Position numbers and translations under genes: made by a program. A DNA stretch of 20,479 bases from a virus, in IMG/VR virus record IMGVR_UViG_3300043803_001187, positions 1 to 20,479 of that record. The stretch is one strand, 5' to 3'. How positions within the stretch are numbered: the first letter of the stretch is position 1; each line of letters begins with the position of its first letter. This document shows, in pieces, positions 1,940 through 14,774 of this stretch. Below the pieces are notes generated by a model. It worked only from the letters and a program-made list of their open reading frames with translations. It made no database searches and had not been told where the DNA came from.

Positions 1940-2398
1940 CTACTTTTTCTTAGACTTGGACCAGAGATCCTTGTCCGCCTTGCGTGCGCCACCACTTCCA
2001 GTGATGAATGAATTTACGCGTCCCATGGCCCACTGTTGCGGTGCTACGCCGGGTCGATGACCGGACCGCCAAGCTGCCATTCCACGTTCGTAAACGCGGC
2101 GTAATACTGACAGTGAGATGCCTGACTTTTCGGCTTTTTTCTTGAGAGCAGCAGTCACGCCGTCCTCACCCATATCCTCCGAGTCGTTACCATACATCCG
2201 CTCGTATGCTTCAGTCGCTTTCGACTTGGGCATTTTATCACCTGCGCGCTTGCGATACGACTTATCAGACTTCCAGTCCTCGTAAACTGATTTAGCTTTA
2301 GCGCCGGATTGCGCTTTCTCCATCGTCTCCTTGGCCTCACGCTTCGCAGTTTCCTGCTCGCTCTTTGTGAGACCTTTAGCGTAATCCGGCTTTAGTGC
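1940..2398 (-). CDS. DUF5824-like phage protein, probably expressed by -1 frameshift
   Basis: The C-terminal half contains the conserved core of a small phage family: SGISLSVLRRVYERG, AAWRSGHRPG, PQQWAMGRVNSFITG and a lysine-rich end. This matches my memory of DUF5824, common in cyanophages and of unknown function. The first ATG in frame is at 2323 (127 aa), but family-like sequence (ALKPDYAKGLTKSEQ) continues upstream to 2398, directly abutting the stop of the preceding gene, and there is no ATG, GTG or TTG in those 25 codons. The frame is exactly -1 relative to the preceding gene at a GGGAAAG heptamer, so the natural product is probably a 390-aa fusion. Alternatives are a short product from 2323, a non-standard start, or a base error that separates two halves of one gene. 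The reading frame and family call are firm. The mode of expression is inferred. Confidence 0.75.
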   Translation of the reverse strand, partial: ALKPDYAKGLTKSEQETAKREAKETMEKAQSGAKAKSVYEDWKSDKSYRKRAGDKMPKSKATEAYERMYGNDSEDMGEDGVTAALKKKAEKSGISLSVLRRVYERGMAAWRSGHRPGVAPQQWAMGRVNSFITGSGGARKADKDLWSKSKKK

Positions 2399-2404
2399 TT
2401 TCCC
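2333..2404 (-). promoter_or_regulatory. Candidate programmed -1 ribosomal frameshift site
   Basis: In the frame of the 239-aa gene the mRNA reads GAG GGA AAG CAC TAA. The last G of GAG with the next two codons forms G GGA AAG (2404-2398), a canonical X XXY YYZ slippery heptamer. Slippage by -1 gives GGG AAA GCA CTA AAG and enters the DUF5824-like frame. After a seven-base spacer, GCC (2390-2388) and TTACGC (2384-2379) can pair with GCGTGAGGC (2342-2334, one G-U pair). The loop holds a GCAG-GAAA-CTGC hairpin at 2357-2346. A competing stem pairs GGTCTCAC (2374-2367) with GTGAGGCC (2340-2333). The pairings were found by eye, with no energy calculation. Confidence 0.6.
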
Positions 2405-3111
2405 TCTTTGAATCCAAAGAGTTTCAGCTTGGTCATCCGATCGTTTGCGCTGCCGTAGTCCTCTTCCTCTTCTTCTTCTTCCTTCGGCTCAACTTCTAAG
2501 CCAGGACCGTACATAGCATAATCATGAACGGCCGCCATGTAGTCAGCGGCGAGAGTAATCTTAGCTTCCATCCAAGCTTCGACCTCGACCTCGTTTCCAG
2601 CCATCATCTCCGACTCCATCATCATGATGAGGTGAGAGACGTCAGCGCGCAACTTACGAAGTTGCGAGAGAGCCATCTTCGTATCCTCTTCCGAGAATGT
2701 CGGAGTCGGATAGCCAATTGCCATTGGCACACGCTTCTTGCATCCTTCGACGCAATCAGTGTACTCCTGCGATCCTTCCTTGTAGCGCTTACCACACTTC
2801 TCCTCGAATCGAGCGCTGAGTACGGGCTTTTCGCCGGGCATAAACGATGTACTCATCATCCGACCGCGGGGCATCTCCTCGAGATCGAACTCGTCTGGGG
2901 ATTTCTGCGGCATTTCTTTAACTTGCTTTAGAAGTTCGCTGGCTTGTTCAACGTAGTTCTTGCCTTTGGACTTCCCGCACATTGACAGAGCGATGGCGAC
3001 TGCTTGATCCTGGTCGGTGACCACTTTGCCATCTTTGCCTGAGTGGAGTTTGCCGTCCTTCCACTCTTTCATCACGTCAGCGACGCAACCTTTTCCCTTC
3101 TTGACAGGCAT
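2392..3111 (-). CDS. DUF6496-like conserved phage protein, upstream partner of the frameshift fusion
   Basis: Residues about 5-50 (KGKGCVADVMKEWKDGKLHSG, then DQDQAVAIALSMCGKSKG) fit the short DUF6496-type module seen in many phage and bacterial small proteins, function unknown. Residues 102-127 contain a second Cys-rich motif with C106, C120 and C124. Residues 145-200 form a helical, methionine-rich segment, EVEAWMEAKITLAADYM followed by HDYAMYG, of a kind recurring in marine phage structural-region proteins. A run of acidic residues follows at 206-218. The zero-frame product stops after 239 residues, two codons past a GGGAAAG slippery heptamer. Slippage would join residues 1-238 to the 152-residue DUF5824-like frame. 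I see no clear ribosome binding site at the start; the preceding gene ends four bases upstream, so coupling is likely. A structural or head-associated role is a guess from context. Confidence 0.75.
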   Translation of the reverse strand: MPVKKGKGCVADVMKEWKDGKLHSGKDGKVVTDQDQAVAIALSMCGKSKGKNYVEQASELLKQVKEMPQKSPDEFDLEEMPRGRMMSTSFMPGEKPVLSARFEEKCGKRYKEGSQEYTDCVEGCKKRVPMAIGYPTPTFSEEDTKMALSQLRKLRADVSHLIMMMESEMMAGNEVEVEAWMEAKITLAADYMAAVHDYAMYGPGLEVEPKEEEEEEEDYGSANDRMTKLKLFGFKEGKH

Positions 3112-5142: not shown

Positions 5143-5766
5143 TCAGACAGCGCCCCCAGCCTGTTTGATAAGTTCCATGATCGCCTCGCGCCCCGAATCA
5201 GTCGATTGTTTATCAAGCGCGCTTCGAAGCCCTTTAATGTATCCATCATCGTTCCCACCGCTGCGGCGACCGCCTTTACGTTTGGAAGACTGCTTCGGCC
5301 CAACCTTTTTAACGCCAGCGACCGACCCCCAAGGAACCATGATCCACTTACCATCCTTCATCGCCCACCCGAAAGCGTTACCGTCGATCATGACTTTACG
5401 GTTATTGGTCGGGTCAGACCCTTGTTTCTCGGCGGTTTTCTTCATCTTCTCCATGCGAAGCTCTTCTACGGTTTTATCTGGCTTCTCCTGCTTTTTCTCC
5501 TCTCCCGCCTTAGGCTTCTCGCCAGGTTTCTGACCATCTGAAGCTGTGCCCGTTACAGGTTTGCCAGTCTCAGGGTTACACTCACCGACAGTGCCGTAGC
5601 GAGTGCCATCCGGACGTTCACACACAGCATAGTCAACGTAATCACCTTCGGCGAACTCGATCTTGCCAGCATTAGCAAGTCCTTCGAGATAGGCGATGAT
5701 CGTGCCGGGAGCGTAGCCACTAACGAATAAGTAGTCAGCGATATCCTGTTCGGAATGCTTTTTCAT
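5143..5766 (-). CDS. Cys-tag protein with short unknown C-terminal domain, 207 aa
   Basis: The N-terminal 45 residues are a helical segment (SEQDIADYLFVSGYAPGTI then LEGLANAGK). Next comes a variant of the shared two-cysteine module: VCERPDGTRYGTVGEC with C49 and C63. The cysteine spacing is two residues shorter than in the other four tagged proteins. A lysine/glutamate/proline-rich linker covers about residues 75-125. The C-terminal part holds KVMIDGNAFGWAMKDGKWIM and a basic stretch SSKRKGGRRSGG, then a helical end. I do not recognise the C-terminal part. The ATG at 5766 shares one base with the stop of the preceding small gene (TGATG), so the two are translationally coupled. Like its relatives it may be a virion-targeted protein, which is inference from the shared tag. 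Confidence 0.7.
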   Translation of the reverse strand: MKKHSEQDIADYLFVSGYAPGTIIAYLEGLANAGKIEFAEGDYVDYAVCERPDGTRYGTVGECNPETGKPVTGTASDGQKPGEKPKAGEEKKQEKPDKTVEELRMEKMKKTAEKQGSDPTNNRKVMIDGNAFGWAMKDGKWIMVPWGSVAGVKKVGPKQSSKRKGGRRSGGNDDGYIKGLRSALDKQSTDSGREAIMELIKQAGGAV

Positions 5767-5921
5767 CAGAGGTAAGCTGCGGCAATAAATTCTTCTTCAG
5801 AGACTTTACCACTCTCAGCGAGTTTTTCAGCGAGTTTGAAGAGCTGTTCGGCTTTCTTCTCGTCACCTTTGAAGAGAGCCGCTTTGCGCTGGGACATCAG
5901 CTCGACGTATTTCGATGCCAT
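5766..5921 (-). CDS. Small helical hypothetical protein, 51 aa
   Basis: Starts at the ATG at 5921 behind the ribosome binding site AGAGGA, six bases upstream, and stops at the TGA that overlaps the next ATG by one base. The product, beginning MASKYVELMSQRKAALFKGD, is a single charged helical repeat-like unit: an A-L-F-K-G-D-E-K-K-A-E-Q-L turn, followed by KLAEKLAESGKVSEEEFIAA. The pattern loosely recalls tetratricopeptide-type helical pairs. A comparable run, MHRGDKKAAQQILNIL, occurs in the small protein encoded at 15064-15240. The strong start signals and tight coupling on the downstream side support a real gene. Its function is unknown. It could be a small partner or chaperone of the tagged protein that follows. 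Confidence 0.65.
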   Translation of the reverse strand: MASKYVELMSQRKAALFKGDEKKAEQLFKLAEKLAESGKVSEEEFIAAAYL

Positions 5922-5951
5922 CGTAGTTCCTCTTTTGATTATTGTGGGAGG

Positions 5952-7613
5952 TTAAACGTTTTTGTAAAGGGTTTTTAGATATGTACGAGCGTCGGACTCC
6001 GAGATCTCTTCAAGAACTTCATCGATCTCTTTTGGTTTCATGCGAATGCCCAACCGATTAGGCTCATATCCCCGATCCTCAAGAATACGGATAATCGCTC
6101 GCTGGTTCTTACGAAATTGAGCATACGCTTCGGGTTCATCGCCTGATGGCTTCCAACGGGTGATAAAACTTCCTGACTGCCAGTCACCATTGTTTGTGGA
6201 GAGTGCTTCAGCAAGAGCGGCTTTGTGACTCACTTGGGCGAGTCCAAAGTCGATCACTTGCATCCTTTTGGCGGCCCGGTCATAAAAGACGTTGCCGCCA
6301 TGCATATCATTGTGAGCAACACCGGCGAGGTGAATGTCCTTGCGAGCGCGAATGTACTCGTTAATGAGATCGCGGCGCTCATCCGCTTTTGTTATCCCGA
6401 GGGCAGCAACTGGCCGCCCGTTGGCCTCCCCAATCCCGAGGTATCCCTTCCCCTCTTTTACATGACCGCCAAGACTCTGTCCTACTTCCTTCAATCTCCG
6501 ACTTGTCGCTGCACCATGAAATTCAGGGACTCGGCCGGTTCCTTGCAGTTTCTGCCATGCATCAACCTCAAATTCGCCGATTTGTCCCTTCTTAACTACT
6601 CCCGGTGGTGGTCCGTTGGTACGAAATGCTTTGCCCATCGCGCCTTCGGCGAGCAACTCATTGTCTTGTTTGGCAAATGCTTGGATCGGATCGTAGCCCT
6701 CAACACCTTTCGTAAAGTTCCAGCCTTTTTGTTCATTTCCAGCCGTGGCAACTTCACGCTTGTTGATACGCTTTGCTTGAGCTGGTGTCTCACCACGACC
6801 AGCGACTTCCTCCTCGATCTTCGCTCTTTGCTTCGGATTGAGTGAACGTTCTTCGAGGATGCGTTGAAGGATGGGAGTATCTTGTACAAGAAGTTTCTTA
6901 TTGACAATGATCTGGGCATCCTTGTCAAGACCGTAGGGCTTAGGCTTCGACTTACTTAGTCTCCTCGGAGTTTGATCCTCGAGGTCGCGCTGCGCACGAA
7001 TTCTCTTCAGTTCCTGCCCAAGACGCTTGACTTCGTTTACGTCAAGTTTTCCGGATGCATTCGCGAGATCCTTGATCTTTTGAAGGATCGCTGATTCCTG
7101 CCGAGATACCGTCTTTTTAGCTGACTCCTTTGGAGGTTCCGGTTTCTTAGTTGCTTGTTTAACTGCGGGCTGCTGCTTTTTATCGATTCGCTCATTAAGT
7201 CTCCGCGCCAGAGATTTCACCATCTTCTCGCCACGCACGACCCTTACACCTTTCTCAGCACGAAGTTTATCGTTCTCCTCGAGAATCGATCTTACTTTGA
7301 GTCCGGCGGCTTGCGCCTTCTTCATGATGTCGCGGTGTTTATCATTGGGACCGATAGAGATCGGAACTCCCTGGCGACATTTCTTTCCATCAGCGATGGG
7401 ATAAACGGTACCATTCGGTCGTTGACAAGCTGCGAAGTCAAATCCATCCATGACTTCACCAAACTCGCTATCAACTCGCTCCATGTACGAGGCGACATCA
7501 CGACTTTGCTGCTTGATATTCTCCCGAATTTCGCTGAATTCTGACAGAAGTTGCTCACGAACTGACTCCTCGAGAGAATAATCAAAGGATCCGTGTTGGG
7601 ATAGTTTTGTCAT
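5952..7613 (-). CDS. Cys-tag protein with C-terminal kinase-fold domain, 553 aa
   Basis: A modular protein. Residues 1-55 form a helical leader beginning MTKLSQHGSFDYSLEESVRE. Residues 60-83 carry the two-cysteine tag (C63 to C79, ACQRPNGTVYPIADGKKCRQ). A long Lys/Glu-rich linker follows to about residue 300. The C-terminal domain has protein-kinase landmarks: a glycine-rich turn LLAEGAMGKAF (320-330), a candidate ATP lysine in GVVKKG (K341), Glu residues in the following helix, the catalytic loop HNDMHGGN (H434, D436, N441) and the metal-binding VIDFGLA (D455). All key residues are present, so an active kinase acting on host or phage proteins is likely; the substrate is unknown. The domain is smaller and more divergent than eukaryotic-type Hanks kinases. 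Its start overlaps the previous kinase gene by four bases (ATGA). Confidence 0.85.
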   Translation of the reverse strand: MTKLSQHGSFDYSLEESVREQLLSEFSEIRENIKQQSRDVASYMERVDSEFGEVMDGFDFAACQRPNGTVYPIADGKKCRQGVPISIGPNDKHRDIMKKAQAAGLKVRSILEENDKLRAEKGVRVVRGEKMVKSLARRLNERIDKKQQPAVKQATKKPEPPKESAKKTVSRQESAILQKIKDLANASGKLDVNEVKRLGQELKRIRAQRDLEDQTPRRLSKSKPKPYGLDKDAQIIVNKKLLVQDTPILQRILEERSLNPKQRAKIEEEVAGRGETPAQAKRINKREVATAGNEQKGWNFTKGVEGYDPIQAFAKQDNELLAEGAMGKAFRTNGPPPGVVKKGQIGEFEVDAWQKLQGTGRVPEFHGAATSRRLKEVGQSLGGHVKEGKGYLGIGEANGRPVAALGITKADERRDLINEYIRARKDIHLAGVAHNDMHGGNVFYDRAAKRMQVIDFGLAQVSHKAALAEALSTNNGDWQSGSFITRWKPSGDEPEAYAQFRKNQRAIIRILEDRGYEPNRLGIRMKPKEIDEVLEEISESDARTYLKTLYKNV

Positions 7614-8950
7614 ATGCCCTCGTATAGCTCCTTAAGCAGTCCTTCTGCCTCTTTCTCCGTCAAGTTTCCAAACATTCGATCTATTTCTGACTGAGTGCTA
7701 CGAATGCTACCAAATAAAACTTTGTCTTTAATCCCACGAGCTTCAAGTTTATCGATAACACCCTTCTCATTGGATCTTAGCCGATCGAGCGCCAGGTCAC
7801 CTTGACTTTTCTTGGGAGCGTACGTATCAAGAAAATCCGTGGATTGAAAATCATTACGCGTTGTATGAAGCGCTTCCAACAATGCCGCCCGATAACCAAT
7901 TTGTGCTAATCCAAAGTCGATCACCTGCATGGTAGCTTTTTCCCCACGAGGATACTGAAACGCATTTGATCTCTCGGAGTAAAAAATGTTTCCAGAGTGC
8001 ATATCATTGTGAGCTACACCATTTAAGTGAATATCCTTGCGGGCTCTGATATAGTTATCAACGACAGCGGCTCTGGTTTCATAATCTTTATCGAGATATA
8101 GCCCAATTAGGCTTTCTCCCTTGGCTCGGGCGATTCCGATTGTTCCTTGAGATGCTCTTACATGCGAACCGACATCGGGATTGATAGGCTCAGATTGAGA
8201 GTCTACAGTCGCACCGTGAAATTTTGGGACAATACTTAATCCTTGAAGACGCTTCATCGCCGCGACTTCAAATTCACCAATTTCTCCCCGCTTAACTACT
8301 CCGGGAGGAGGTCCATCAGACAGTTTCGCCACCCCCATCGCACCAGACCCTAATTCGTAAGTTGCTTCAGCAAACGCCTTATTCGGGTCAAATCCCTTAA
8401 CTCCCTCGATAGTTTTTTGTCTCTTATCTTGAACTTTCTCGGATTTTTTCTGACTCTTGGCTTCCTCAACTGCGGCCTGTTGGGCTTTACTCAACTTCAT
8501 CTTCGAGAGTTTCTCAAGCTTCTCGGGAGAAAGCTTCGACAACCTCTCACGGGTCTCAGGCTTAATTTTCTGATTATCTGGCTTCTCACTTTTTAATTTT
8601 TGTGACTTAGCCTTTTCAATGGGTTTTACTGCTTCTTCCTTCCTCTTTTTTGCAGAAGGCTTATTCTCTTTTATCGTTTTCTCTTGCTTTAGTCGCTCAT
8701 AAGCCGCCGCCATCCGCTGAGCGGTGTCCGATGGTTTGACTCGCTTCTTGCGCTTGGGTTCATACTTTTCGGCAGGAGCAGCTTTAGTTCCCTTTCTACA
8801 CTGCAGACCCTCGGGGATTCCGTAGAATGATCCGTCCTGACGTTGACAGCGCGCGAAGTCTAATGATTCGCTAAACTCGGTTAGAAGCTGTTCGCGAACT
8901 GACTCGTCCAGCGAACTGTCAAAGTTGCCGTGTTGTGAAAGTCTCGTCAT
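7610..8950 (-). CDS. Cys-tag protein with C-terminal kinase-fold domain, 446 aa (paralogue)
   Basis: A paralogue of the next gene downstream. The leader MTRLSQHGNFDSSLDESVRE is nearly identical. The tag is residues 32-55 (C35 to C51, RCQRQDGSFYGIPEGLQC), followed by a shorter, very lysine-rich linker (about 60-180). The kinase-like domain has LGSGAMGVAKL (200-210), GVVKRGEIGEFEV with K220, the catalytic loop HNDMHSGN (H314, D316, N321) and VIDFGLA (D345). Ends and catalytic core are conserved between the two kinases, whereas the linkers differ in length and sequence. That is what duplication followed by relaxed linker evolution would give. It is coupled by ATGA overlaps on both sides. Kinase fold is well supported by motifs. 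Being packaged in the virion and acting early on the host is my inference. Confidence 0.85.
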   Translation of the reverse strand: MTRLSQHGNFDSSLDESVREQLLTEFSESLDFARCQRQDGSFYGIPEGLQCRKGTKAAPAEKYEPKRKKRVKPSDTAQRMAAAYERLKQEKTIKENKPSAKKRKEEAVKPIEKAKSQKLKSEKPDNQKIKPETRERLSKLSPEKLEKLSKMKLSKAQQAAVEEAKSQKKSEKVQDKRQKTIEGVKGFDPNKAFAEATYELGSGAMGVAKLSDGPPPGVVKRGEIGEFEVAAMKRLQGLSIVPKFHGATVDSQSEPINPDVGSHVRASQGTIGIARAKGESLIGLYLDKDYETRAAVVDNYIRARKDIHLNGVAHNDMHSGNIFYSERSNAFQYPRGEKATMQVIDFGLAQIGYRAALLEALHTTRNDFQSTDFLDTYAPKKSQGDLALDRLRSNEKGVIDKLEARGIKDKVLFGSIRSTQSEIDRMFGNLTEKEAEGLLKELYEGI

Positions 8951-10800
8951 ACTAACTCCGGCATCTCCGTGAGGAAGAACTCGTTGATCTTCTCCGAGAA
9001 AGTTTTAGCGAATCCCGCGGCGGTGTTTCCGTTAAACAACTCGCCCCTCTTTAAGTCGAGTCTTACATCATTATAGATTTGCTTGACTTTGAGTTGCACA
9101 GCGGGAGGCAGATCGGGATAGTTCTCCGCGATCCACAGACCAGGCGACATCTTGCCCTTTACAGCACCGACTACGAACTCAGTCTTTGGATTTAGAAGAT
9201 TTTTCACTGGGTTTCTGATCCCGTCGATCTTCTGCTCCTGAGGAAACTTAAGCATCTTGTCACCAGACTCGCCAGCAGTCGGTTGATTCCCAAGTGCCAT
9301 TGCCACGTATTTAATGTGACCCGCTCCATTGAACGCATCGACAACGCCACGGCGGTTACCGAGATACTCGCTGATGAATGTCGGAGCGTTTGCCTTATCA
9401 CGCCAGATATCTTTACCAGCCGCCTTGGTCTGAGCGGCATCAAACTCCTGTTGCCACTTATTGTAGTCCTTGATGGAGTTTACGCCTGACCATGCACCAG
9501 ACTTGCTTGACGATGCTCCTCCAGTGAAGAGATAGTCCATGTTGTTTTCGGACTTTAGCTGGTTCACTGAGCGAAGTGTCCACACCCAATTGTTCGGATT
9601 CTCCGCCTTAGCACCAACTTGTCCCATTGGCTTGATGTGCTCGAGGTCGGAGAAGTCCCAAGTCAGTGGGCGGCCTGTATAAGCACACTTGCCATCCTGA
9701 CGTAGCCAAAGACGAAACAGTTCCTTGCCTCTCTCAGGGCTTCCATTCCCGCCGTTGATCGGGTTGCCATTGGCATCTGTTCCCTTCCAAGCCTGACCGT
9801 TGGGATTACCGCAATTGCTGAACGCGTTACGCATCTTCGGCGACAGCATCGCCCAAGCGGCATCGAGCGTCACGTCATCAACATCTTTGAATTTAATAAT
9901 CGAGTTCTTTCCGCCGATTAGAGACGGAGGGTCCTGGAACCCAGCAAGAAGTTTTTTCTGGATCTCTGGGTTCTGTAATGCCTTGACCTCATCGACTGAG
10001 AGCTTGGTAGCTTTCCGTCCAGCGGAAGCGGAAACTAGCGAAGTCAATGCAGTACCGAGCTTCTGAGTTTCCTCAGGGCCGTACTTCTTGTCAAATGCTT
10101 CTAAAGCTGTGATTCTCTTTGCCAATTCCTTCGGAGTGAGGTTTTCTCCCTTAATCCCATAAGTTTCTTGAAGAATTTTTTCAAGACGCGTACGAGGCTC
10201 GCTTTCGCCAGCCTTCATATTTTCCTTCTTAGCCTCCGTAACCGGAGACTTTTTTGGTTTTGCGACCTTAGGTTCTTTAGTCTCTTCTGCTTTTTCTTGT
10301 TCCTTTCTACGTTGCTCTAACTTCGCGCGAAGTCCAGCAATCTTCGCGAGCTTCTCATCGCGTCTTTCAGACCGAGTAGTCTCCTTACGAGCCGCTGCGG
10401 CTTCAACTCCTTTCTTAGGGAACCCTTGATTTTGCAGTGAAGTTGGAGATTTAGTAACCGGAGTTACCGCGGGTCCCCCACTACCTTTCTTGCGGCCTAA
10501 ATTTACGGCTTGAATCGCTTTTCCAAATTCCTTATCGTCTTTAACTTTCGCGATTTTCCCAAGTATTTCACGTGGCACACCACGCTTAGCCAAGGCCCCA
10601 AGCGCGGCCGCCCGATTAACTTCGCGTCCTTTGCGGCATTGCCTTCCCGAAGCAATACCATAATATGTCCCATTCGGGCGTTGACAGACCGTGAAATCAA
10701 AAGACTCAGGAGATTCAGCAAAGCGAAGTTCCATTACCTCACGAGCTTTCGCTTCAAGCTCTGTATCCCAAGTGCCAAACTGTCTAAGATTAGGCTTCAT
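8947..10800 (-). CDS. Cys-tag protein with HNH endonuclease-like domain, 617 aa
   Basis: The leader (MKPNLRQFGTWDTELEAKAR) is followed by the tag at residues 35-58 (C39 to C55, VCQRPNGTYYGIASGRQC). A helical, charged linker full of Lys, Glu and Arg spans about 60-230. The region 355-425 contains an HNH-type signature: RQDGKCAYTGRPL (C372), DLEHIKPMG (D385, E387, H388), NPNNWVWTL and VNQLKSENN. This fits the beta-beta-alpha metal fold in which His and Asn coordinate the metal and activate water for DNA cleavage. About 190 residues follow without a motif I recognise. Unlike free-standing homing HNH enzymes, it carries the same tag as the neighbouring kinases, so it is probably a resident member of this set. 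Packaging-associated HNH nucleases are known next to terminases, which is an alternative role. It is coupled by overlaps on both sides. Confidence 0.82.
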   Translation of the reverse strand: MKPNLRQFGTWDTELEAKAREVMELRFAESPESFDFTVCQRPNGTYYGIASGRQCRKGREVNRAAALGALAKRGVPREILGKIAKVKDDKEFGKAIQAVNLGRKKGSGGPAVTPVTKSPTSLQNQGFPKKGVEAAAARKETTRSERRDEKLAKIAGLRAKLEQRRKEQEKAEETKEPKVAKPKKSPVTEAKKENMKAGESEPRTRLEKILQETYGIKGENLTPKELAKRITALEAFDKKYGPEETQKLGTALTSLVSASAGRKATKLSVDEVKALQNPEIQKKLLAGFQDPPSLIGGKNSIIKFKDVDDVTLDAAWAMLSPKMRNAFSNCGNPNGQAWKGTDANGNPINGGNGSPERGKELFRLWLRQDGKCAYTGRPLTWDFSDLEHIKPMGQVGAKAENPNNWVWTLRSVNQLKSENNMDYLFTGGASSSKSGAWSGVNSIKDYNKWQQEFDAAQTKAAGKDIWRDKANAPTFISEYLGNRRGVVDAFNGAGHIKYVAMALGNQPTAGESGDKMLKFPQEQKIDGIRNPVKNLLNPKTEFVVGAVKGKMSPGLWIAENYPDLPPAVQLKVKQIYNDVRLDLKRGELFNGNTAAGFAKTFSEKINEFFLTEMPELV

Positions 10801-11203
10801 CTGCTCTATCCATCTGTGCCTTAACCTTTTCGGCCCAGGCTTTGCCAGGATCCCCGCCCCAAAGTAACCAGCTGATCAGGGAGTTTGATGGGGGATTTGT
10901 GGTGTGATTTTGTTTGTACGCTGAGTGCCTTGCGAAGAAACTCACCATTCGACCGATCGTTGAGGGCGATAACTTCTGGCGATTCTTCAACGAAGCCGCC
11001 CGAGCTACACCCGAACCTATCCCTTCCTTTGACGCTTGCTTGGTCGTGAGACCACCGCGTCCAGTCTTGCTACGAAGATTGAGACCCCGAGCCGCAGCAT
11101 TTGCCACGGATTCGGGCGGCACAAAGCTAATTCCCTCATAGCGTTCGGCCCACTCGGGATTCTCAGCCCACTCTAACGCATCTTCGGTGAAGTGTCCGAT
11201 CAT
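10790..11203 (-). CDS. Conserved small phage protein with C-terminal WLLWGG motif, 137 aa
   Basis: Residues 25-130 follow a pattern I know from many tailed phages as a small separate protein or as the tail of head-region proteins: a short helix ending in ANAAARGLNLR, then GRGGLTTKQASKEGIGSGVA, RAASLKNRQKLSPSTIGRMV, SFFARH, and finally ISWLLWGGDPGKAWAEK. Its function is unknown. Here it has a 24-residue leader (MIGHFTEDALEWAENPEW) that resembles the leader of the tagged protein encoded just upstream (FTDEALRYAE), but it lacks the two-cysteine tag. It overlaps the upstream gene by ATGA and the downstream HNH gene by 11 bases. The shared leader suggests the same destination as its tagged neighbours, which is inference. 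Confidence 0.75.
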   Translation of the reverse strand: MIGHFTEDALEWAENPEWAERYEGISFVPPESVANAAARGLNLRSKTGRGGLTTKQASKEGIGSGVARAASLKNRQKLSPSTIGRMVSFFARHSAYKQNHTTNPPSNSLISWLLWGGDPGKAWAEKVKAQMDRADEA

Positions 11204-12144
11204 CCCTGCATCCGCTTCTCGAGATCTTTAATCGCAGAGCTGATGCGCTGTTGTTCCTTGATCGTTACGGCGTCATCCATACGATCGCGAAGGCGCTCCA
11301 ACTGCATGCGCTGTTCGGGAGTGCCCTTGCCACTGCTCTCTTTCTTTTTCGCGGGAGATTTACGCTTAGGTGCCGCGCCTGTCAGACGAGCTCCCTGAAC
11401 CTCATCAAGACGCTTATTGATCTTGAGAGAGGCCCGCATGAACTTACGTGCAGCTGCATCATCGCCGTCCCGACGAGCGTTACGCTCCTTCGCGAGAACC
11501 TGAGCATAAGCACGTCTCAAACTAGCTTCCTCCTTCTGACGTTGCATTATTCCCTCATCCCGCTTCTTACGCGCTGCGGCGCCCACCTCTATTTCCTTGC
11601 GGAAGTCGGTCTTCAGTTTCGGCTTAGCTTCTTCTTCCTTACGGCGCTGATCCCGCTTCTCCTGCTCTTTCTTCAGGCGTGCCTTGATCTTCTTGTCAGC
11701 CGCGGCTTGCCGAGCACGAATAGTGTCATCGACCGACTTACCGGTCTTCTTGGCGTCAGCCTCGATCTTGCGCATGCGCTGCTGTTCTTGGATATCACCG
11801 CGCAATTTAGCTAACTTTCCGCGACGAGGTGCTCCTTCAGCCTTTAGTCCCTTGATCGCTGACTTCAACTCGGCGATCTTTTCTTCACGGGACTTACGCT
11901 TCTTTGTCGCCTCAACCACAGGCTTTTGTCCCTCACGCTGACGCTTAGCGCCAGGATCAATCGGGGAGGCTTTCGTTCCCTTACGGCACTGCTTGCCATC
12001 AGGAATCGGATAAAAAGTTCCATCCGCACGTTGGCAACGGGCGAAATCATACGCCTCGGCAAATGACTCAGCGTCCTCTAATTTTACTTGGGCGAGAGCT
12101 TCTGCGTAACGCAGTGCCTCGTCCGTAAAGCGGTCTTTACGCAT
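11200..12144 (-). CDS. Cys-tag protein with long basic coiled-coil region, 314 aa
   Basis: This is the first gene of the tagged cassette after the terminator. Leader residues 1-32 (DRFTDEALRYAEALAQVKLE) are followed by the tag at 34-56 (C37 to C53, RCQRADGTFYPIPDGKQC). The remaining 250 residues are almost all Lys, Arg, Glu, Ala and Gln, in long helical runs such as KKIKARLKKEQEKRDQRRKE, and strongly net basic. A C-terminal coiled coil is likely (RMQLERLRDRMDDAVTIKEQ). No enzyme motif is seen. A DNA-binding or condensation protein packaged with the genome, or a structural rod inside the head, would fit the charge. I see no good ribosome binding site; a small hairpin lies just upstream of the start. 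Confidence 0.75.
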   Translation of the reverse strand: MRKDRFTDEALRYAEALAQVKLEDAESFAEAYDFARCQRADGTFYPIPDGKQCRKGTKASPIDPGAKRQREGQKPVVEATKKRKSREEKIAELKSAIKGLKAEGAPRRGKLAKLRGDIQEQQRMRKIEADAKKTGKSVDDTIRARQAAADKKIKARLKKEQEKRDQRRKEEEAKPKLKTDFRKEIEVGAAARKKRDEGIMQRQKEEASLRRAYAQVLAKERNARRDGDDAAARKFMRASLKINKRLDEVQGARLTGAAPKRKSPAKKKESSGKGTPEQRMQLERLRDRMDDAVTIKEQQRISSAIKDLEKRMQG

Positions 12145-12223: not shown

Positions 12224-13030
12224 TCAATCTTCGTATCGTCTCAAAATGTGAGCGATGACCGAGTTCCTGACGATGTCGTCAACTGTGAATCTCACCTTTC
12301 CAACTTGATCGAGTCCGGAGAGTCGTTGATACGCGTCGATCAATCCGCTGTTTGACTGAAAAACATCAAGGTCGATTTGACGAGTGTCTCCCGTAAGGAT
12401 CACTTTCGCATTCTCGCCAACTCGACTCAGCACAGTCTTGCACTGGTCTGGAGTCGCGTTTTGCGCCTCGTCGAAGATGATCAGGCAATTCGACAGTGAG
12501 CGTCCGCGAACATCCTCGAGGAGAATCGGCTCAACAATTTTCTTGTTGACTAGATACTCAGCTGCCCCATGCGAGCGCATGATCACATTGAGGTTATCAA
12601 AGACGGGACCGACAAGCGGCGCCATCTTCTCCTCCAAAGTTCCAGGCAGCGCTCCACGGCCTCGCTGGTGCATCACACCAACATCAGACCGAAGATAGTA
12701 AACTTTGTCAATTTGATTAACTCTAATTGAGCTCAGTCCCCAGTGAAGAGCTACGAGAGTTTTGCCGACTCCGGCGGGTCCAACGGCGATTGTAACCGTG
12801 TTCTTGTTCAGACATTTCCAAAGTTCCTCCTGCCTGTCAGTCCGAGGGATGAAAGGCATAAGGTCCATGTTGCGGTGGGTGTCGTATTCCGTCTGAGCTT
12901 GGATAGCTCTGCGTTCTTTCCGACGCTCTTTGCAAGCAGGCATTACATTAGGGGTGGTAAAGGTTTGAGATTCGAGGAGTGTGAACTCTAGGCAATCATC
13001 GCGATCACCTCCTTTCCCTTTGCCATACAT
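12224..13030 (-). CDS. phoH: PhoH-like P-loop ATPase, 268 aa
   Basis: The P-loop GPAGVGKT (residues 84-91), Walker B CLIIFDEAQN (182-191), the TGD switch in ILTGDTRQID (211-220) and the arginine-containing end VRFTVDDIVRNS are the full set of PhoH signatures. PhoH proteins are predicted ATPases related to RNA helicases. The gene is widespread in marine phages and used as a marker of them; its role during infection is unsettled. The length matches phage PhoH. The first 55 residues before the core are charged (CKERRKERRAIQAQ) and probably flexible. A ribosome binding site AAGGGAG lies just before the ATG at 13030. It follows terL by 37 bases and ends at a strong terminator, so it is the last gene of the packaging transcript. 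Upstream phosphate control (a Pho box) is not visible. Confidence 0.95.
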   Translation of the reverse strand: MYGKGKGGDRDDCLEFTLLESQTFTTPNVMPACKERRKERRAIQAQTEYDTHRNMDLMPFIPRTDRQEELWKCLNKNTVTIAVGPAGVGKTLVALHWGLSSIRVNQIDKVYYLRSDVGVMHQRGRGALPGTLEEKMAPLVGPVFDNLNVIMRSHGAAEYLVNKKIVEPILLEDVRGRSLSNCLIIFDEAQNATPDQCKTVLSRVGENAKVILTGDTRQIDLDVFQSNSGLIDAYQRLSGLDQVGKVRFTVDDIVRNSVIAHILRRYED

Positions 13031-13067
13031 AGCTCTCCCTTACGGGGTGCAATCCGGTTTTACCCGC

Positions 13068-14774
13068 TTAATCCATCCCGATATCGTACTTTAAGTCATT
13101 ACGACCCATACGCTTAGCAACTGACGCATCAGTGCCGTCTCCGAAGAACCACGAGCGCTCACCATGTGTGAGTAGCTGTCGGCGTCCCGGTTTGGTCTCC
13201 GTGAACTCCTTAATCAACGCCTTTCTATCCTCAGACCGATTCGACCCGGCACGCATGAGTTCAGCGGCGTTTCCCGCGATGCCGTCCATATAGAAGGCAT
13301 AATAGGTTGCGCCCCAGACGATCGCGTCAGTCTTGTCATCGTGAGGCACAAACGGGAACGCGGTGATCTCCTTGATCGTAGCATCTGTCCATGCTCCCTC
13401 CACAAAGTGAACCCGTCCCGCCTCAAACAGCGGCGCCACAGTCTGCAGACGCACTGTCTTTGAACGAATAGGTTTGAACGGATGGATATGAATTTTGCTT
13501 TCCCGTTCCAGCATCTGGATGAGTGATTGTCCACTCGCAGCCTGTTCAATCGTCAGGAATCGCGCTCCGTAATACTTCGCCGACTGTTGGAGCATCGCGA
13601 GTAGATCGGGAAATGACCACCGACCACTGATTATCTCTCGCACGTACAAATTATCCTTGTCCTTCCGTGAGTATCCCATCACTGCTATCACACTCTCGTC
13701 CGCAGTTTCCTTCTCGGAGAATGCCGTATCGAGTGACAGGTACGTGATATCAAACTCGGGGCACTCCTCCGGAGTTTTTACGCTGATCCATCCGGCTTTG
13801 ATGATCGAGCCCTCCTGGGCAGTTGGGCGTCCCTGATACAGAGCGGCGAACTTATCTGAGCCCATAATCCGCTTCTGTGACAGAAGCATATCGACAGTGA
13901 ATGTGGCGTTCCCGGGCCAATGCGACTCACCATTCTTCCGCCCGAGAATGTCACTTGACTCATTCTCGCATAGCGCTTCGATATTCACCCAGCGCCATCC
14001 AAGCGGATTCTCGGCTTCATCGAACAGTCCGTCACCGTCCATCAACAGACCATGAAGATCCTTCTCACCAAATCGCGTACCGATAACGAGCTGCGCCCAG
14101 CGGTTGGTACGACGTGTGGATGCCTGTTCTCCCCACCAGTTTTCGAGTTCCTCGAACGCAGCGCGGGAATCCGAACCCTTGAGCGGGTCGTCGATAACCA
14201 TAGCTCCGACGCCGCGGGAGTCTTCGTAGGGACTACCTGCGGTAAATCCTGTCAGCACACCGCCAACGGATGTCGCGAGGATAAATCCTCCGCCTTTCAT
14301 GTCGTATTTGGAATCAGGCTGGAACCCCGACCATTCTGGAAATACCTTTCCGAAGTGCTTGTGCCGTAGATACCCGTTGATCCCTCGGTGAAACTTGTTG
14401 GAAAGCTGCTGACCGTACGAGGCAATGATATGCTGCGTCTGTTCGTCCTTTCCGAGCAACCACGCAACAAATAGTTGCGATAACATCGACTTCCCGGAGC
14501 GAGGCGCGCAACTAACAATCAGTCTCGCGTAGCGTCTCTCAGCTACGTCCTCAAATGCGGAACCGATGATCTCGTGGAAGTCGGCGACTTGCAACTTCCC
14601 ATCGAGCATGATGTCAGCAAACGCCAAGAAACAAGAACGTGCCGCACGAAACTTAAATTCCTGCAGCACGCCTCGAGGAGCCTCAAGTAGTTCTAGTTCT
14701 CTAAGCCCACGCTTGTAGATTCGCCAACTGGAAAACTCTTCCAATTGAGAAGCGTGAGTGATGATGGGTCTCAT
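13068..14774 (-). CDS. terL: Terminase large subunit, 568 aa
   Basis: The packaging motor ATPase and nuclease. The N-terminal ATPase has Walker A APRSGKS (90-96), Walker B AMVIDDP (191-197) and the coupling motif IGTRFGEKDL (231-240). The C-terminal RNase H-like nuclease has the acidic residues D349 in SLDTAF, E410 in LTIEQAASGQ and D483 in HDDKTDAIVWG. The whole length is present and all key residues are intact. The enzyme translocates DNA into the procapsid through the portal and cuts concatemers. By motif style it belongs with the broad Terminase_6-type large subunits rather than the T4 gp17 branch. The start overlaps the previous gene by four bases (ATGA), as expected if that gene encodes the small subunit. 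Confidence 0.95.
   Translation of the reverse strand: MRPIITHASQLEEFSSWRIYKRGLRELELLEAPRGVLQEFKFRAARSCFLAFADIMLDGKLQVADFHEIIGSAFEDVAERRYARLIVSCAPRSGKSMLSQLFVAWLLGKDEQTQHIIASYGQQLSNKFHRGINGYLRHKHFGKVFPEWSGFQPDSKYDMKGGGFILATSVGGVLTGFTAGSPYEDSRGVGAMVIDDPLKGSDSRAAFEELENWWGEQASTRRTNRWAQLVIGTRFGEKDLHGLLMDGDGLFDEAENPLGWRWVNIEALCENESSDILGRKNGESHWPGNATFTVDMLLSQKRIMGSDKFAALYQGRPTAQEGSIIKAGWISVKTPEECPEFDITYLSLDTAFSEKETADESVIAVMGYSRKDKDNLYVREIISGRWSFPDLLAMLQQSAKYYGARFLTIEQAASGQSLIQMLERESKIHIHPFKPIRSKTVRLQTVAPLFEAGRVHFVEGAWTDATIKEITAFPFVPHDDKTDAIVWGATYYAFYMDGIAGNAAELMRAGSNRSEDRKALIKEFTETKPGRRQLLTHGERSWFFGDGTDASVAKRMGRNDLKYDIGMD

Follow-up and report, generated by a model that had tools for sequence, protein, structure and literature searches.

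Why do five neighbouring viral genes open with the same short, two-cysteine motif when the domains that follow differ from one product to the next? The question is raised by a 20,479-nucleotide stretch of viral DNA (IMG/VR record IMGVR_UViG_3300043803_001187), which was analysed at its full length and is called the window throughout. A preliminary description had proposed that the motif, or tag, sorts a set of swappable effectors, probably into the capsid, for delivery together with the DNA.

The tagged genes of the window

The five genes are present and lie on the minus strand, with a conserved landmark upstream of the tagged island (12224..14774, minus) consisting of the large terminase gene (13068-14774) and PhoH (12224-13030). 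Their products are 82% (terminase) and 89% (PhoH) identical to those of contig 3300035703_000020, and 53% and 59% identical to those of Synechococcus phage S-CBWM1. A profile built from 52 tags outside the window matches exactly the five tagged ORFs, with E values from 1.5e-14 to 6.9e-11, and the next-best ORF in all six frames reaches only E 0.13, which rules out a chance resemblance.

Protein A (11200..12144, minus; 314 aa) has a helical N-terminus that leads to the tripeptide FAE (12055..12063, minus), a putative prohead-protease site, followed by the tag CQRADGTFYPIPDGKQCRKG (11977..12036, minus; E 2.2e-14 with the window-free profile, first cysteine at residue 37) and a body rich in Lys, Glu and Arg that is probably a coiled coil. 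Protein B (8947..10800, minus; 617 aa) carries FAE at 10714..10722 and the tag CQRPNGTYYGIASGRQCRKG at 10627..10686 (both minus; E 1.8e-14, first cysteine at residue 39), then a linker and a predicted HNH-type nuclease domain. In protein C (7610..8950, minus; 446 aa) the tripeptide is FSE (8867..8875, minus), and the tag CQRQDGSFYGIPEGLQCRKG (8789..8848, minus; E 1.5e-14, first cysteine at residue 35) is joined by a linker to a protein-kinase-like domain at residues about 186-446, which retains HND and DFG motifs; no cysteine occurs after the tag. Protein D (5952..7613, minus; 553 aa) has FGE at 7455..7463 (minus), an additional FSE at residue 26, the tag CQRPNGTVYPIADGKKCRQG at 7368..7427 (minus; E 6.9e-11, first cysteine at residue 63) and, behind a long linker, a kinase-like domain that is 44% identical to that of C. 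Protein E (5143..5766, minus; 207 aa) combines FAE (5647..5655, minus) and the tag CERPDGTRYGTVGECNPETG (5563..5622, minus; E 2.2e-11, first cysteine at residue 49) with a small domain of unassigned function.

The chaining of genes by overlaps noted in the preliminary description holds, but the chain comprises five genes rather than four, one of them untagged, with overlaps of 4, 11, 4 and 4 bases (12144-11200 / 11203-10790 / 10800-8947 / 8950-7610 / 7613-5952); the gene at 5143-5766 follows after a gap of 185 bases. The tag-less member (10790..11203, minus) matches phrog_2859, and five relatives contain no cysteine, a feature discussed below for the tagged proteins; its product is possibly head cargo too. 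The spacings between the two cysteines were likewise described correctly, being 15, 15, 15, 15 and 13 residues in proteins A to E. Four tags of the window thus share a spacing that is the exception in the family, as 13 residues separate the cysteines in 98 of about 105 distinct tags. The structure predicted for the tag, at moderate confidence (pLDDT 74-79), is a helix followed by three short strands, and a structural search of the PDB with this model returned no match.

Spread of the tag and exchange of the domains behind it

Viral contigs in IMG/VR were scanned with tag alignments and all ORFs of the retrieved loci were then searched, which yielded 267 ORFs with a tag (152 distinct) and up to ten on a single contig. 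Among 50,697 phage records clear tags occur only in S-CBWM1 (gp165 and gp39), and two short tag patterns run against 84,980 bacterial and archaeal species genomes found only two MAG contigs, so that, as far as these patterns reach, the tag is all but confined to viruses. A candidate tag family, phrog_5776, was discarded as a chance match, because it fails to match S-CBWM1 and does match in unrelated genomes.

A homologue of gp170, the protease-scaffold protein of S-CBWM1, was detected in 15 of 24 tag-bearing records, with E values as low as 1.6e-74; the nine records lacking one are contigs of 50 to 112 kb that are not complete. The S-CBWM1 gp170 itself belongs to phrog_976, head maturation protease (E 3e-67). 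Together with the terminase and PhoH identities to S-CBWM1, this distribution means that the tag seems to go along with a single capsid lineage. The tagged contigs represent the non-T4 lineage of S-CBWM1. The S-CBWM1 capsid protein matches Phage_cap_E, and the T4 gp23-type capsid profile PF07068 found no match in 33 records, a result that has to be read alongside controls that were equally matchless.

What follows the tag is diverse. A scan of 129 tagged proteins identified protein kinases (17), two ADP-ribosyltransferase families (8 and 7), NMNAT-like cytidylyltransferases (3) and DUF3626 (4); other tagged proteins match Alt-like RNA-polymerase ADP-ribosyltransferases and a minor-head-protein domain, with one recognisable effector domain in each protein. 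Alt is the textbook example of an injected head protein. PADLOC models matched only as the kinase-type PD-T4-6, plus a few isolated weak matches.

The preliminary assignment of two kinases was borne out by Pfam hints and a confidently predicted kinase fold. PF00069 gave E 1e-5 for protein D and 0.0015 for protein C (below the gathering score), while both proteins have the catalytic Lys, HxD and DFG, the residues K220, D316, N321, D345 and G347 being invariant, and a predicted fold that matches kinases. The best viral structural matches of the window kinase are the S-H34 kinase, F5B400 (consistent in its length of 821 with the S-CRM01 kinase) and S-CBWM1 gp162. For the predicted nuclease of protein B the Pfam match to HNH_4 is weak (E 0.046), but the protein is homologous to S-CBWM1 gp174, annotated as 'virion structural protein' (E 1.7e-15), and to proteins of T4-like cyanophages.

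That the effectors are swappable, as had been proposed, is visible in single gene slots. When protein B is compared with the protein occupying the same slot behind PhoH in locus L007, the N-terminus and tag align with z 23.7 and the rest with z 1.3; against the counterpart in L009 a distant HNH-like remainder is kept (z 4.2). For protein A and its counterpart in L010 the corresponding values are z 31 and z 0.4. The cargo has thus been exchanged behind a conserved tag. The kinases tell the same story from the other side, as their domain is also found behind a second, four-cysteine tag, behind T4-like signals and on a MuF-like head protein (L001); on the best kinase tree the N-terminal module switches among these at least five times, and well-supported branches alone require at least two switches for the tag.

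These observations bear directly on a reading in which the motif belongs to a single enzyme fold and the proteins resemble one another because one family was duplicated. Proteins C and D would fit it, being paralogues over their full length (33% identity). The three non-kinase proteins of the window are alike only in their N-terminal part and in charged linker stretches, and elsewhere in the family tags are followed by domains of the kinase, ADP-ribosyltransferase, NMNAT-like, HNH and minor-head types. The domain survey refutes the idea that the motif lies inside a single kind of enzyme, an outcome that the preliminary description had named as fatal to its proposal, and we give this reading practically no credence.

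A tripeptide shared with the protease-scaffold, and the loss of cysteines

Within the 40 residues upstream of the tag, the tripeptide [F/Y][SAGNT]E occurs in 81 of 109 distinct tags, compared with a mean of 17 and a maximum of 33 in 1,000 shuffles, these counts and those that follow coming from related sequences rather than independent trials. It mostly lies 6-11 residues before the tag, the commonest distances to the first cysteine being 6, 8 and 10. Upstream of the tags [LIV]xE is not enriched (20 against 16.8 expected), [FY]xD is at chance, and the reversed tripeptide is mildly elevated (31 against 17). The head protease-scaffold proteins contain the same tripeptide in 6-11 copies each, a number that none of 500 shuffles equalled for any of the 15 proteins; their total is 123 against 26.6 expected, and three control motifs fall below expectation in these 15 proteins. 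Homologues of the capsid, portal and gp176 proteins from six contigs have one tripeptide altogether, against about 14 expected, and in gp172, a small protein of the head cluster, a single copy is conserved at residue 12-15. Effectors exposed to the protease should avoid F-x-E internally, but it is not avoided within them (41 seen, 38.7 expected); as folded domains these may be protected. Taken together, the analysis suggests that [F/Y]-[small]-E is probably the site of the prohead protease.

Cysteines are almost absent behind the tag. They make up 0.049% of residues there; the controls, which are conserved ORFs without a tag from the same contigs rather than curated genes, contain 1.27%. Past the tag, 109 of 118 tagged proteins are free of cysteine, where 9.9 would be expected. 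Homologues of the terminase and PhoH, for comparison, contain 1.49% and 1.28%. Nearly all cysteines of the cargo therefore sit in the tag. Behind the four-cysteine tag the figure is 0.017%, and the 30 kinase domains that follow either tag have no cysteine in 8,335 residues; T4-like virion kinases and one HNH relative have 0-1 per protein. Such a purge fits residence in an oxidising extracellular particle, and it suggests that the thiols of the tag are retained for some purpose.

Other N-terminal modules occupy comparable positions. The four-cysteine motif, CxKGKSCGxxCIx5C, is located near the N-terminus of further proteins on the same contigs, its carriers in S-CBWM1 being the kinases gp161 and gp162, the RIO kinase gp113 and gp174. 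In Aphanizomenon phage CL131 this motif lies inside a protein of 1,800 residues. In syntenic homologues of protein E the tag is replaced by another two-cysteine motif, CGPGEKMTFGVCRK, which often follows F-A-E. Kinase and HNH homologues in T4-like cyanophages, as well as a virion cytidylyltransferase, start with F-L-x-E: the S-CREM2 kinase with FDAFLTE, its cytidylyltransferase with FSSFLTEA and the S-CRM01 kinase with FDQFLSE, all of which resemble T4 capsid-targeting sequences (CTS).

Proposed head loading, competing readings and known systems

The proposed sorting into the capsid gains support from mass spectrometry carried out by others on related phages. S-CBWM1 gp39 is tagged and is the sole annotated NMNAT in the whole genome record, and NMNAT is stated, second-hand in both sources, to be present in S-CBWM1 virions (PMC10665884; PMC9602691); APH, ChoK and Rio2 kinases are said there to have been detected in the same virions (PMC10665884). 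In CsCl-purified virions of S-CREM2, mass spectrometry found the APH/ChoK-like kinase ORF14 (21 peptides), the cytidylyltransferase ORF154 and the 'Cas9' nuclease ORF12 (28 peptides) (PMC10665884), the kinase being homologous to the window kinase (E 1e-12). Homologous kinases and NMNAT in T4-like cyanophage virions, the report of gp39 and the tag on Alt-like cargo thus all agree with a capsid destination.

We consider it highly probable that the five proteins predicted from the window are head cargo of an S-CBWM1-like myovirus, loaded through an N-terminal module, trimmed by protease and delivered with the DNA. Less easily reconciled with head cargo is that tagged genes frequently lie tens of kilobases away from the capsid genes. 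Each protein would be built from three modules: first a propeptide, largely helical and closed by [F/Y]-[small]-E, then the tag as a compact two-cysteine unit, and lastly an effector that can be swapped, attached through a Lys-rich linker. As the prohead assembles, the tag and the rest of the N-terminal region would recruit the protein into the protease-scaffold core, where the head maturation protease would cleave scaffold and cargo after F-x-E, much as T4 gp21 does after L/I-x-E. Once trimmed, the effectors would stay beside the DNA in the head and reach the host cell upon infection, so that kinases, ADP-ribosyltransferases, NMNAT and nucleases could be active there immediately.

Which element serves as the loading signal is where this model meets its most serious competitor. 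The propeptide, up to and including F-x-E, could be the signal, and the cysteine motif could act after loading, as a disulfide- or metal-bound knot for passage through the tail (with unfolding and refolding), by anchoring the protein to DNA inside the head or by docking on a host target. Because F-x-E precedes the motif in 81 of 109 cases, the motif would remain on the mature protein; in the syntenic homologues a different cysteine motif, CGPGEKMTFGVCRK, stands at the same place, also after FAE; and the T4 CTS is likewise a short propeptide (PMC5694885). Against this, about a quarter of the tags lack F-x-E, the cysteine motif being the conserved part, and gp39 is reported from virions although it combines its tag with an N-terminus that is free of F-x-E and shorter than 25 residues up to the first cysteine. 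Tag and cleavage site are thus separable, which argues that the cysteine motif can suffice. We regard the propeptide as a plausible signal, somewhat short of an even chance. More tentatively, we speculate that non-T4 aquatic myoviruses share a general cargo code, in which small exchangeable cysteine tags (CxRPDGxxYGTxGxCRKG, CxKGKSCGxxCIx(5)C, CGPGEKMxFGxCRK) load cysteine-purged effectors into the head and act via their thiols, for example as a clasp, held by a disulfide or a metal, that closes under the oxidising conditions of the virion and opens again in the reducing cytoplasm of the host.

Loading into the head would be beside the point if the tagged proteins were late cytoplasmic enzymes with a common adaptor for a host or viral partner, present in virions as contaminants; the authors of the proteomic studies do leave co-purification of abundant proteins possible (PMC10665884; PMC9602691). 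This seems unlikely to us, as the virions of several cyanophages, from different lineages, repeatedly contain these classes of enzyme (PMC10665884), cargo and scaffold share a tripeptide, thiols are purged and the T4-like homologues bear N-termini of the T4 targeting type. We hold it still less probable that the tag delivers polymorphic toxins, whose C-termini poison competing bacteria or phages and are accompanied by immunity genes. A modular trafficking N-terminus with variable C-terminal enzymes recalls such systems, as does the one kinase relative on a MuF-like protein, but NMNAT and kinases are untypical as killing toxins, and cargo genes number up to ten per contig, frequently in tandem. 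MuF toxins, moreover, are described from temperate phages (PMC5576092), whereas the annotation of S-CBWM1 contains neither an integrase nor signs of lysogeny.

For head cargo, a short searchable tag combined with the cysteine purge would open a way to catalogue injected effectors across a phage lineage, many of them without known function; to our knowledge, phage-injected proteins are otherwise hard to spot in metagenomes. The tag would also offer a packaging handle for trial in the cultured cyanophage S-CBWM1, and it would help to account for the repeated finding of kinases, NMNAT and nuclease-like proteins in cyanophage virions. Injected head proteins, CTS signals and the virion kinases and NMNAT of cyanophages are already known; neither the shared tags nor the connection between F-x-E and the scaffold nor the purge of cysteines turned up in the literature searched, whose coverage was partial.

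The closest comparison is with the T4 CTS of Alt and the internal proteins, cut by gp21, which is similar in placing an N-terminal signal on unrelated proteins, in its hydrophobic-x-Glu site (ITE and LTE for Alt), in Alt-type ADP-ribosyltransferase cargo and in the delivery with the DNA that is proposed here (PMC5694885). As for a CTS, the propeptide here ends in a motif common to the tagged proteins and the protease-scaffold, but the site is F/Y-x-E instead of L/I-x-E, the propeptides are longer and a two-cysteine motif follows the site. The tagged lineage further differs from T4 in its Phage_cap_E-type capsid, its protease fused to the scaffold, its up to ten such genes per contig and the near absence of other cysteines, so that the tag module would function like a CTS yet is distinct from that of T4. 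Homologous effector domains occur in purified virions of S-CBWM1, S-CRM01, S-CREM2 and S-SCSM1 (PMC10665884; PMC9602691), the T4-like members having F-L-x-E propeptides in place of the cysteine tag. MuF polymorphic toxins (PMC5576092) and polyvalent proteins (PMC5512222) are head-delivered phage enzymes with exchangeable C-terminal domains, although these are placed on one large or structural head protein, and in polyvalent proteins several per chain, whereas here many small proteins share a short tag and have a single recognisable effector; Pfam and PHROG profiles found no MuF/gp7 N-terminal domain in the five window proteins. The ejection proteins of the giant phages SPN3US and phiKZ, finally, which have long propeptides, resemble the proposed picture of the tagged set in their multiple cargoes and trimming by a prohead protease at x-x-E, and differ in protease and capsid type and in a shared cysteine tag, which is not met in the consulted part of that account (PMC5694885).

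Cysteine motifs and a substitute for the tag

A second N-terminal motif, which holds four cysteines (CxKGKSCGxxCIx5C), is present in the same viral contigs as the two-cysteine tag. It is found at the viral loci L076, L020, L097 and L071 and in gp161, gp162, gp113 and gp174 of the Synechococcus phage S-CBWM1; its bearers are kinases and HNH-type proteins, in which cysteine downstream of the motif is nearly nil (0.017%). In homologues of the tagged window protein 5143-5766, the tag position is occupied by a third motif, CGPGEKMTFGVCRK (L003:17561-18364, L009:15503-16642, L081:161-772, L065:10517-11182), frequently directly C-terminal to FAE, the putative prohead-protease site.

Other genes of the window

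The DUF5824 gene at 1940-2323 (E 1.2e-17) further matches the C-terminal end of the phage cytidylyltransferase family phrog_3041 and, because its relatives are cysteine-free, may represent an additional head-cargo module. The untagged gene within the overlapping tagged chain (10790-11203), which matches phrog_2859, is 80% conserved in relatives and likewise lacks cysteine. DUF6496, carried by the protein at 2392-3111, is also found in four tagged proteins from other contigs.

Related arrangements in other phages

In S-CBWM1, ribonucleotide reductase alpha is annotated with an intein, and psbA has group I introns (L135:34955-35980 and 39226-41322). At L001:8498-10744, a MuF-like minor head protein has a relative of the window kinase as its C-terminus, joined through a Lys/Pro/Ala linker. 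In T4-like cyanophages, kinase and HNH proteins (L102:777-3044, L100:543-3008, L104:3080-5143) have in common, shortly after F-L-x-E, the module MGLEYxGxGxWxDPxTGxxTHKS, which resembles an equivalent of the tag that lacks cysteine.
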